Shown here: in pieces, positions 1-10,188 of the stretch
Layout of the letters: the number at the start of each line of letters is the position of its first letter
Numbering within the stretch: position 1 is the first letter of the stretch
NCBI GenBank assembly: GCA_017535105.1
Contig: JAFXUI010000002.1
Span: forward strand, 1-45,269
Length of the DNA: 45,269 bases
DNA from: Alphaproteobacteria bacterium
GTDB lineage: Bacteria > Pseudomonadota > Alphaproteobacteria > Rs-D84
Reading direction: 5' to 3'
Made by a program: the position numbers and the translations under genes
The notes under the pieces: generated by a model
The model's database searches: none
Seen by the model: the letters and a program-made list of their open reading frames with translations, nothing else
Told to the model about the DNA's origin: nothing

Positions 1-134
1 CATATGGCATACCGGAATACCCGCTACAAAAAGCAAAAATATTTATACCGGATAACGATTGAATAAATTATTAATAGTTCGGCCAAGAGTCAGTAAATCA
101 AGTATATCACGAGTTCGAGAAATGCTAAGACACT

Positions 135-264
135 CCAACCACGATTCCAAATCGTTCGATTTCAGCAATGAGTCGAACGTTTTTTGTAGAGAAAACCAGC
201 ATTTTTTACCATCTATCACTGAGTTCGAAAGTAAAATACCAAATATACATCTCCTATCCTGCAC
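135..264. repeat. Left copy of a perfect 130-bp inverted repeat
   Basis: This block is the exact reverse complement of 1821-1950; position x here pairs with 2085-x and I find no mismatch. Identity stops sharply at both ends (T134 against C, G265 against T). Its first seven bases, CCAACCA, equal the 3' end of the tRNA-Gln gene next to the right copy, yet I find no tRNA upstream of 135. It contains an inner inverted repeat, CGTTCGA at 153-159 and TCGAACG at 173-179. The flank 1-134 holds nothing I can identify. Confidence 0.95.
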
Positions 265-350
265 GACGAATAAATATATAAAAAATAAGTAAAAAAAGCA
301 GTTTTTGCTTAGTTTTTTGGCCAAAATGCTGAAAAAAGTCGCTTACTTTT

Positions 351-362
351 GTGTTCGAACAC
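351..362. promoter_or_regulatory. 12-bp palindrome upstream of the recombinase gene
   Basis: GTGTTCGAACAC is a perfect palindrome 30 bp before the recombinase start. It shares the TTCGAA core with motifs inside and beside the flanking inverted repeats. It could be an operator or a recombinase-binding site; the function is inferred only from position and sequence sharing. Confidence 0.35.
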
Positions 363-392
363 GACAAAATATGTATAAACAAAGGGGTTTAT

Positions 393-2006
393 ATGACAAA
401 TGTATCTGAAATTATTGGTAAAAAAGCCGTAATATTCGCCAGAGTCAGTTCAAGAGAGCAAGAATTAGGCCAATCGATTGATGCACAGTTGCAAAATTTA
501 AGGATGTATTGTAAAAGACAGGCATTCTCCGTAATTAAAGAATATTCAATCACCGAAAGTTCAACCCGAGGGGACAGAAAGAAATTTACTGAAATGCTAA
601 GTTTTGTAAAGCAGCAAAAAATGAAAGTAATAATTGTTGCTGATTGTATCGACAGAATTCAAAGAAGTTTTAGGGAATCAATCGAATTGAGTGATTTAGT
701 CCATGCAAATAAGATTGAAATACATTTTGTTCGTGAAAATCTGATTATATCGTCAGAATCAAACACATCTGACAATATGAGATGGGATTTTGGTGTTCTT
801 GCTGCAAAAAGTTATGTCAGCAATCTTAGTGATAATGTAAAAAGAAGCATGAAATATAATTGGGAACATGGGAGGTGGCAAGGTATAGCACCATTGGGTT
901 ATAAGAATATTCGTTCAGCTGACGGCAGGGCTGATATAGTTTTGGATGAAGAGAGGGCGCCTTTGATTCGACAAATGTTTGAAGCATATGCAACAGGATT
1001 ACAGACAACGAACAGTTTAGTTGATTGGTGTAAAGAACATAATTTGACTTCTCGTGGGGACAGAAGAAGGCCAGGTAAATTTTTATCAAGAGTTGGAATA
1101 TACCAGATATTAAAAACACCTTTCTATTATGGTATGATGAAAGTTAAAGATAAGATGTATAAACACAATCATCCGGTAATAATAGATAAAGATTTATTTG
1201 ATACTGTGCAGATTTTATTATCCAATCAATACCCAAATAAAAACGAAAAAGATATACCTGTTGTTCCAGTAAAGATAACAAAAAGACGGTATAAAGATGT
1301 ATTGTTTCCATTTACCGGAATCTTTAAATGTGGATGTTGTGGACATTTAATGACACCTGAAATGCACAAAAAACCAAGTGGAAAAGAATACATACATTAT
1401 AAGTGTGGGCATATGGTTAAAACCTGCACTCAAAAAACATTAAATCAAGACGAAATAATAAAACAATTTTATGAAGATGTTGCAGATAAATTATATTTAA
1501 CCCCCGACGAAATAGAAAAAATCAAATCGAACATAAAACCGTATTTAAAAAGTAAAAATATAGAAATTGCAACCAAGACAGATGTTCAACATAATATTTC
1601 AGTTGCAAAAGAAAGAAAGTCAAGATTGGTAAAAATGTTGTTAGACGGTTTAGTAGATAAATCAACATATACAACCACACTTGCTGAAATTGAAACAACG
1701 ATATTGGAAAACGAGCATTTACTAGAAAAATATCAAGAAAATAATGTAGATATTGCTGAATCTATAACAAATATCTTAAAATTTGTTGGAAATCTAAGGA
1801 AAATTATAGAAAGTTCGAAAGTGCAGGATAGGAGATGTATATTTGGTATTTTACTTTCGAACTCAGTGATAGATGGTAAAAAATGCTGGTTTTCTCTACA
1901 AAAAACGTTCGACTCATTGCTGAAATCGAACGATTTGGAATCGTGGTTGGGGCGCACGGATTCGAACCATGATAAAGAGAACCAAAATCTCTTGTCCTAC
2001 CATTAG
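393..2006 (+). CDS. Large serine recombinase (resolvase/integrase family)
   Basis: The N-terminal resolvase domain carries ARVSSREQ with the likely nucleophile Ser19. A recombinase domain follows (around WEHGRWQGIAPLGYK and GIYQILKTPFYYG), then a zinc ribbon (CGCCGH, later KCGH and TC) and a C-terminal coiled-coil-like stretch. Such enzymes cut and rejoin DNA at att sites through a phosphoserine intermediate, in phages, transposons and inversion systems. The start at 393 is preceded by AAAGGGG at a suitable distance; an upstream in-frame start at 351 has no such site. The last ~62 codons lie in the right inverted repeat and then antisense in tRNA-Gln, so the native C terminus has probably been replaced by read-through. 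The gene is much richer in AT and in AGA codons than the core genes, consistent with a mobile element. Confidence 0.92.
   Translation: MTNVSEIIGKKAVIFARVSSREQELGQSIDAQLQNLRMYCKRQAFSVIKEYSITESSTRGDRKKFTEMLSFVKQQKMKVIIVADCIDRIQRSFRESIELSDLVHANKIEIHFVRENLIISSESNTSDNMRWDFGVLAAKSYVSNLSDNVKRSMKYNWEHGRWQGIAPLGYKNIRSADGRADIVLDEERAPLIRQMFEAYATGLQTTNSLVDWCKEHNLTSRGDRRRPGKFLSRVGIYQILKTPFYYGMMKVKDKMYKHNHPVIIDKDLFDTVQILLSNQYPNKNEKDIPVVPVKITKRRYKDVLFPFTGIFKCGCCGHLMTPEMHKKPSGKEYIHYKCGHMVKTCTQKTLNQDEIIKQFYEDVADKLYLTPDEIEKIKSNIKPYLKSKNIEIATKTDVQHNISVAKERKSRLVKMLLDGLVDKSTYTTTLAEIETTILENEHLLEKYQENNVDIAESITNILKFVGNLRKIIESSKVQDRRCIFGILLSNSVIDGKKCWFSLQKTFDSLLKSNDLESWLGRTDSNHDKENQNLLSYH
1821..1950. repeat. Right copy of the 130-bp inverted repeat, overlapping the tRNA-Gln 3' end
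   Basis: Exact reverse complement of 135-264. It covers codons near the 3' end of the recombinase gene and ends seven bases inside the tRNA-Gln gene (1944-1950). A further pair, AGTTCGAAAGT at 1812-1822 and its reverse complement at 1853-1863, straddles its left border. The two copies point in opposite directions, so recombination between them would invert 265-1820 rather than excise it. Confidence 0.95.
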
Positions 2007-2017
2007 ACGACACCCCA
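1944..2017 (-). tRNA. tRNA-Gln (anticodon TTG)
   Basis: Read on the minus strand it folds as a cloverleaf. The acceptor TGGGGTG pairs with CGCCCCA. The D arm is GTC/GAC, the anticodon stem is AGAGA/TCTCT with loop TTTTGGT giving anticodon TTG, and the T arm is CATGG-TTCGAAT-CCGTG. Discriminator A and an encoded CCA follow at 1944-1947. The last seven bases belong to the inverted repeat, making this the probable integration site of the neighbouring element. The recombinase reading frame ends antisense within it. Confidence 0.93.
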
Positions 2018-9318: not shown

Positions 9319-10188
9319 TTATTCCCCGAAATCAAGTTCACGAATCTTTTCAGCACGCGGTGCAATTTTAGAAATAGATGTTTGTAATTCATCAATGTCT
9401 TTTTGCGCCGATGCAAAATGTTGATCGATTGCGCCCGCGCGTTTAGACAGACGGTCCAGATCACCAAGCAATAATTCCAATTCTTTTTTAATTTTGGCGG
9501 CAACGCGTTTGATTTTTATGTCGGACAATATTGCGCGAATTGTGTTCAATGTCGCCCACAATGTTGACGGTGAAACAATGAACACCTTTTTGCGCGCGGC
9601 ATAGTCAATTGTCGCCGGAAAATCGCGGTGCAGTGATTCAAATATAGATTCCGATGCAATAAACATCATCGCCGATTCCGCGGTTGTGCCGGCAATAATG
9701 TATTTTTCGGCAATTGCGTCAATATGCTTGCGCACGTCCAGTTCAAATTGCTTTTTCGCACCGTCGTCGCCCGCAACCATGCGGTTGTATGATTCAAGTG
9801 GAAACTTACTATCGATAATCATATCGCCCGGCGGATATGGCAGTCTAATAATACAATCGGGACGAACACCGGTTGGCAAAACATGCTGAAAATCATAGGT
9901 TTCTGGTGGCATAATGTCGGTCACAATGTCCGCCAATTGCCGTTCGCCAAATGTTCCGCGTGCCTGTTTATTGCCCATAAGTATATTCTTGAAATTCGCG
10001 ATATCGGCACTGATGTTCTTTAATTCAATCGCGTTTTGCGACAGCGCGCCCAAGCGTTCCGCCAAACGTTCGCGCAGGCGGGCGTTGTCTTCGCGTAGTG
10101 CCGAAATATCCACCGTTGGACGGCGAAAAAGCAACACGATAAGCATAATTATGATTATTCCAAGCGAAATTAAAATATAAGTTGTCAT
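9319..10188 (-). CDS. rmuC: RmuC-family DNA recombination protein, short form
   Basis: The product has 289 residues; E. coli RmuC has about 475, so this is a compact version. It has an N-terminal membrane anchor (YILISLGIIIIMLIVLLF), a short coiled coil (LREDNARLRERLAERL) and the RmuC core. The core includes GTFGERQLADIV, a DSKFPLESYNRM nuclease-like motif and FIASESIFESL. The tail is another coiled coil. RmuC limits inversion between short repeats in E. coli and its core resembles PD-(D/E)XK nucleases. Its start abuts the divergent def promoter. Given the inverted-repeat element in this window the role is suggestive, but no link is shown. Confidence 0.88.
   Translation of the reverse strand: MTTYILISLGIIIIMLIVLLFRRPTVDISALREDNARLRERLAERLGALSQNAIELKNISADIANFKNILMGNKQARGTFGERQLADIVTDIMPPETYDFQHVLPTGVRPDCIIRLPYPPGDMIIDSKFPLESYNRMVAGDDGAKKQFELDVRKHIDAIAEKYIIAGTTAESAMMFIASESIFESLHRDFPATIDYAARKKVFIVSPSTLWATLNTIRAILSDIKIKRVAAKIKKELELLLGDLDRLSKRAGAIDQHFASAQKDIDELQTSISKIAPRAEKIRELDFGE

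Follow-up and report, generated by a model that had tools for sequence, protein, structure and literature searches.

A large serine integrase gene within a perfect inverted repeat at tRNA-Gln: a probable integrated element with a second, inverted attP

The window, by which we mean the whole analysed stretch of 45,269 nucleotides, is the start of contig C3 of an alphaproteobacterial genome (G000; 870 kb, six contigs). It opens with a serine recombinase gene enclosed by a perfect inverted repeat at tRNA-Gln. As a whole, this arrangement is probably explained by an integrated plasmid-like element with a second, inverted attP, the copies being homogenised and not forming an active switch. The mobile element would measure about 11 kb (size from the related genome G168; the G000 cargo is not in the bin). 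A large serine integrase would have inserted it at the 3′-end of tRNA-Gln by recombination of attP with attB, with the crossover inside CCAACCA. The integrase gene would then end inside attL, its last 123 bp representing one attP arm (A), and a second complete attP (A′, core and X1) would lie inverted upstream of the integrase gene, between integrase and cargo.

The integrase gene and its integration site

Positions 135-264 and 1821-1950 form an inverted repeat of 130 nt, the arms of which are 100% complementary and lie 1556 nt apart (Table 1). Such a match far exceeds a chance origin. The right arm comprises the end of the integrase gene up to the tRNA (123 bp) and the last seven tRNA-Gln bases (1944-1950), which read CCAACCA on the tRNA strand. 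The left arm consists of the identical 123 bp and CCAACCA in the opposite direction, followed by different sequence, termed X (1-134). Coordinates and ORF domains agreed with the preliminary description of this DNA, in which a perfect 130-bp inverted repeat around a serine recombinase had been reported, its right copy including seven bases of tRNA-Gln. The ORF encodes one protein of about 500 aa with the domains Resolvase (PF00239), Recombinase (PF07508) and Zn_ribbon_recom (PF13408), all above cut-off, and the protein matched the phrog_95 integrase (E 7e-68). The sequence identifies the recombinase as a large serine integrase, the gene of which terminates at the tRNA 3′-end. The leader upstream of it (265-392) is collinear in the relatives, and its TTCGAA palindrome is mostly retained.

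Table 1. Positions of the element's features at the start of the window
Feature	Position	Strand	Remarks
X1, putative P′ half of second internal attP (attP2)	1..134	-	element extends past window start
Core CCAACCA of putative internal attP (attP2)	135..141	+	contigs C1 and C3 diverge right after; attL and attR have the same core
A′, inverted copy of the last 123 bp of the integrase gene, putative attP2 arm	142..264	-	100% inverted match to 1821-1943; likewise in G168, G096, G107 and G066
Integrase leader/promoter region	265..392	+	TTCGAA palindrome at 351-360 (GTGTTCGAAC)
Large serine integrase gene	393..2006	+	ORF; in the integrated state it reads into tRNA-Gln antisense
52-bp dyad AGTTCGAAAGT...ACTTTCGAACT	1812..1863	.	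centre 106 bp from tRNA 3′-end; probable integrase-binding site within the gene
A, putative attP arm at integrase 3′-end, joined to tRNA	1821..1943	+	element side of attL
Core CCAACCA of attL	1944..1950	-	direct repeat of attR core (G000:C1:135-141)
tRNA-Gln (TTG), target gene, intact, supplies attB half-site	1944..2017	-	ARAGORN, Rfam RF00005; empty site in G002 and G030

The homologues of the integrase all end at tRNA 3′-ends. At 31 loci, not all of which are independent, a homologue (29-100% identical) lies against a tRNA gene, the tRNAs being those for Gln, Glu, Asn, Pro, His, Leu, Arg, Val and Tyr. A scan of IMG/VR for the integrase gave no match, and plasmid and phage collections contained only relatives with less than 33% identity. 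Integrases with 32% identity were seen on two human-gut contigs labelled as phage (L168, MT837677.1; L169, MT836653.1) and on a plasmid of Legionella adelaidensis (L170), located at tRNA-Leu, tRNA-Glu and tRNA-Asn; two of these three loci have the 52-bp dyad at the 106-bp distance.

Contigs C1 and C3 begin with the same 141 bases, X1 being identical to G000:C1:1-134, and diverge exactly after CCAACCA. C1 then runs into AAAATTCAACCGGC, a terminator-like hairpin. In the relatives G002 and G030, we observed AAAATTCAACCGGC directly behind tRNA-Gln, i.e. the empty site tRNA-Gln, CCAACCA, AAAATTCAACCGGC. The tRNA flank of C3 joined to the C1 flank aligned across the junction with 92.6% identity in G002 and 93.0% in G030. 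Since the C1 flank matches the empty-site sequence of the relatives, C1 holds attR (X2 joined to the terminator) and C3 holds attL (tRNA joined to A). CCAACCA is present as direct repeats in attL (1944-1950) and attR (G000:C1:135-141), and by its sequence the right junction of the window is an ordinary attL. We infer that the G000 cargo lies between attL and attR, outside the bin. The preliminary description had considered an element integrating by an unusual route; this part of its interpretation was not sustained, since the direct repeats do exist, the second one residing in attR on C1, and since the joined flanks match the empty site of the relatives across the junction. The comparison with close relatives which it had proposed revealed the intact tRNA-Gln site in G002 and G030, and its view of a mobile element with its own serine recombinase at a tRNA gene stands.

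A mixture of strains is unnecessary for the branch between C1 and C3, X1 and X2 being two copies in one genome. A tandem insertion of two elements was rejected since its tails would be direct, not inverted. X did not match any tRNA, tmRNA or other RNA gene in Rfam or ARAGORN searches, and contig C4 was dismissed as the missing cargo, since it has no end in common with C1 or C3 and its genes are unlike cargo.

Copies of a short interspersed repeat, about 120-150 bp long, occur across the genus and in G000, here at G000:C1:186-325 (L009), G000:C3:96859-97007 and G000:C5:64906-65022. On C1, the last bases of the copy are those of the tRNA-Gln 3′-end (GTGCGCCCCAACCA), with a terminator-like hairpin behind them; the repeat looks as if old attachment ends had multiplied. 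In another genome (G024:C14), a block of X, CCAACCA and terminator is duplicated directly, not inverted, with 96.6% identity (L040:4046-4336 and 9708-9997), its copies flanking genes that resemble a Slam-type outer-membrane protein and a lipoprotein. On G006:C11 (L076:1150-1430), a remnant of the integrase tail lies beside a partial 3′-half of tRNA-Asn, as if a different element had inserted at the former site of this one.

Related genomes, cargo and identity of the repeat copies

We observed the layout, with perfect arms of 131-136 bp, in G168, G096, G107 and G066 as well, four separately assembled MAGs of the genus Candidatus Enterousia; the members that carry a name are MAGs from gut and rumen, among them Candidatus Enterousia merdequi. 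The five-part order of tRNA joined to A, integrase, A′ joined to X1, cargo, and X2 joined to the terminator was found on a single contig in G107, which starts inside the tRNA and holds nearly the whole element including 9.5 kb of cargo. In G168 it spans two contigs overlapping by 55 bp (element about 10.9 kb). G000 and G096 carry matching halves, G096 repeating the situation of C1 and C3, again with 141 bases in common. X recurs inverted at the cargo end (X2) in G107 and G168 with 99-100% identity over 288-292 bp; in G107, A and A′ match by 100% over 133 bp and X1 and X2 by 99% over 292 bp, both pairs being inverted. As A with A′ and X1 with X2 form inverted pairs in G107 and G168, the left repeat would be one arm of a second complete attP. 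In G066, the integrase and both arms reside at a second target, tRNA-Asn, in the last bases of which both arms end; the integrase arc of this genome contains an additional gene. Inspection of the neighbourhood of distant homologues yielded no long inverted tail copies; thus, among the loci examined, the second attP appears confined to one integrase clade.

The window begins at a contig end, and false inverted repeats are common at contig ends. The layout, however, is also present in four further MAGs, each with its own sequence, and it lies well inside contigs in G107 and G168, which makes the probability of an assembly or chimera artefact negligible. The occurrence of the layout in five independently assembled MAGs excludes an error in the left copy, for which the preliminary description had allowed.

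The cargo of G107 includes an HUH-type Rep (PF23343, just below cut-off), a Din-type invertase, a SpoVG-like protein (below cut-off), and TM2-domain and unknown proteins. That of G168 includes a DUF5906 helicase-like protein, a YadA-anchor protein, an AAA_15 ATPase and likewise a Din-type invertase. Such a gene content points to an integrative plasmid or a satellite with the capacity for replication in circular form. An inversion of the cargo between G168 and G107 was rejected: the common genes are collinear and in the same orientation, and only the SpoVG-like gene changes side, adjoining X1 in G168 and X2 in G107. This change suggests that the X arms exchange neighbours over time rather than that the cargo flips.

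The identity of the copies was observed in each of the five genomes. A and A′ match by 100% within each genome (in G096 an alignment value of 98.5% arose from a one-base difference in cutting the copies, the repeat itself being 100% identical), and by 53-90% between genomes. Some blocks even differ wholly between genomes, yet match within each. The attP1 and attP2 regions of 412 bp exhibit no mismatch in G168 and two mismatches in G107, while the same region is 82% identical between these two genomes. Homogenisation of the repeats agrees with the active conversion that the preliminary description had named, beside a recent event, as a cause of their perfect identity. Recombination or gene conversion of the inverted copies probably maintains their identity and may act chiefly in the excised circle. 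In that circle, a 412-bp inverted repeat made up of the two attP regions would separate an integrase arc of 1.55 kb from a cargo arc of 8.5-9.5 kb. At four-fold sites, G000 and G168 are 68% identical in the integrase gene versus 36-38% in two host genes beside the insertion. The integrase is less diverged than the host genes, which argues for this pair that the insertions were not simply inherited with the host. Between G000 and G107, gyrA and the integrase are similarly diverged. Some of the five genomes compared may descend from one insertion.

The 52-bp dyad and the crossover site

At 25 of the 31 tRNA-adjacent loci there is a 52-bp dyad whose centre lies at a distance of exactly 106 bp from the tRNA 3′-end, and the integrase relatives possessing it span eight tRNA types. 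Its arms covary (AGTTCGAAAGT/ACTTTCGAACT, AGTTCGCAAAT/ATTTGCGAACT, GGTTTGAATCT/AGTTTCAAACC). At 18 of 28 loci, the longest inverted repeat of the region was matched in at most 3 of 300 synonymous-codon shuffles, although at three of these 18 it is not the dyad but another repeat, closer to the tRNA, that is longest. As shuffled sequences rarely match the inverted repeat, a constraint on the DNA, not on the protein alone, is indicated. Some homologues (for example L117, L120 and L082) contain a second inverted repeat with arms of 12-13 bp that ends 9-13 bp before the tRNA; its loop of 4-23 nt varies in length, unlike the 52-bp dyad.

Each arm of the dyad contains a TCGA at 21 bp from its centre of symmetry. 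Counted from the crossover centre of TGGTTGG, a TCGA is located at 16 bp in the tRNA T-loop and at 21 bp in X, a comparison of one pair of half-sites. In serine integrases, the outer motif is shifted by 5 bp between attB and attP half-sites (PMC3783163). The same shift of the outer (zinc-ribbon) motif, which lies farther out in attP, is suggestive rather than conclusive. By this geometry, X would be the P′ half-site, the tRNA T-loop would be part of the attB half-site, and the dyad is predicted to be an additional integrase-binding site. The A-side crossover half-sites of G096 and G107 lack the TCGA motif, which counts against the favoured explanation. We found no description, in the openly licensed literature, of serine integrases that are directed to tRNAs and have this dyad (weak evidence of absence). 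The fixed dyad would mark a widespread group of serine integrases apparently reading the universal tRNA T-loop, and such a targeting rule is of interest for genome engineering.

Homogenisation extends only up to the outer dyad arm, which reads AGTTCGAAAGT beside A. The corresponding arm beside A′ is degenerate (TTATTCGTCGT in the window, TTATTCGTAGT in G168 and G096). The attP at the 3′-end of the integrase gene, where the dyad is intact, may be the one used for integration; this would account for the invariant direction of the integrase. attP2, with its one degenerate dyad arm, could be a spare or regulatory site. Both the role of the dyad and the use of attP1 rather than attP2 are proposed from geometry and from five genomes only.

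Alternatively, A, integrase and A′ might form an insertion-sequence-like unit, a small transposon bounded by terminal inverted repeats of 123 bp and inserted into a larger element. The identical outward ends and the single recombinase gene speak for it. In the inferred circle, however, the repeat does not end with such a unit, but reaches 412 bp, continuing through the core and about 290 bp of X. Homologues that lack A′ likewise end at tRNAs and show the same geometry of the dyad, and the cores flanking the arc are inverted, not direct, so that there is no target duplication around it. We regard this reading as very improbable.

Orientation of the integrase arc and comparison with known systems

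The preliminary description had also suggested an invertible cassette carrying its own recombinase. In that case, the integrase, RecA or the Din-type invertase of the cargo would recombine the inverted sites and regularly flip the integrase arc, which might, for example, switch the integrase C-terminus from a tRNA-encoded to an X-encoded tail. The topology allows this: the arms are perfect, the cores inverted, and the gene stays whole in either orientation. Moreover, a Din-type invertase is encoded in G107 and G168, and the X-encoded tail WLECISVSRTRDILDLL is partly conserved. Against regular flipping, the five genomes show a single orientation, each with the integrase tail towards the tRNA. 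The contigs are unbroken at the inner ends of the repeat and show no assembly branch there, though the repeat of 130 bp is shorter than the 141-base contig overlap (apparent k-mer). Furthermore, recombination of attP with attP by the A118 integrase stays below 5% of the normal rate, and this enzyme does not recombine attP with attL or attR (PMC3556126). An actively switching cassette is thus unlikely; in the favoured integrated element, inversion of the arc may be a rare event.

An integrase that works in one direction only should have no use for a second inverted attP; nevertheless, this attP is retained in diverged hosts and at two tRNA targets. It may be functional (flipping, amplification, regulation), or it may show how inverted att regions stay identical. 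For a serine-integrase element of this kind, the openly licensed literature yielded no description (weak evidence of absence).

The domain order is that of other large serine integrases (A118/LI integrase, Bxb1, phiC31, TndX). As in these systems, attL and attR have a short direct core in common, the outer motif is shifted by 5 bp between attP and attB half-sites, and attB is intact in relatives (G002 and G030). In contrast to them, the target is the 3′-end of a tRNA, from T-loop to CCA, att includes the end of the integrase gene, the 52-bp dyad is located 106 bp inside this gene, and the putative second attP lies inverted within the element. The reviewed IMEs with serine recombinases insert within protein genes (PMC5704250). 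Islands of tyrosine integrases at tRNAs likewise use the tRNA 3′-end as attB, leave the tRNA intact and have a direct repeat at both ends; here, the integrase belongs to the serine family and the common core comprises only 7 bp. In the Hin/Gin/Din segments, a recombinase gene also resides between inverted sites, and the cargo of G107 and G168 includes a Din-type invertase. Unlike in these segments, the arms would be attP regions of a large serine integrase, a promoter or coding switch is not evident, and one orientation, instead of the two of phase variation, occurs among the five genomes.

The yeast 2-micron plasmid contains inverted repeats of 599 bp, each with a recombinase site (PMC3147054). 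With this Flp/FRT system the inferred circle has in common two long identical, site-bearing inverted repeats that divide a recombinase arc from a replication arc. By analogy, a bacterial integrative plasmid might employ two inverted attP regions in the way in which the FRT repeats serve the 2-micron plasmid: inversion at the attP repeats in a replicating circle would turn a fork around and lead to double rolling-circle amplification. Recombination in the circle would then flip the integrase against the replication arc, homogenise the repeats and raise the copy number before re-integration at a tRNA. The shared topology, the recombinase gene running into the repeat, the replication-type cargo genes (DUF5906 helicase in G168, HUH Rep in G107) and the homogenised repeats are consistent with this scheme. 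Canonical serine integrases, however, disfavour attP with attP, and the assemblies are without sign of an abundant circle. We accordingly give amplification, and such a use of the attP regions, only a small probability. The two systems differ in that the recombinase is of the serine, not the tyrosine, type, and in that the sites would be attP regions, which integrate at a tRNA.
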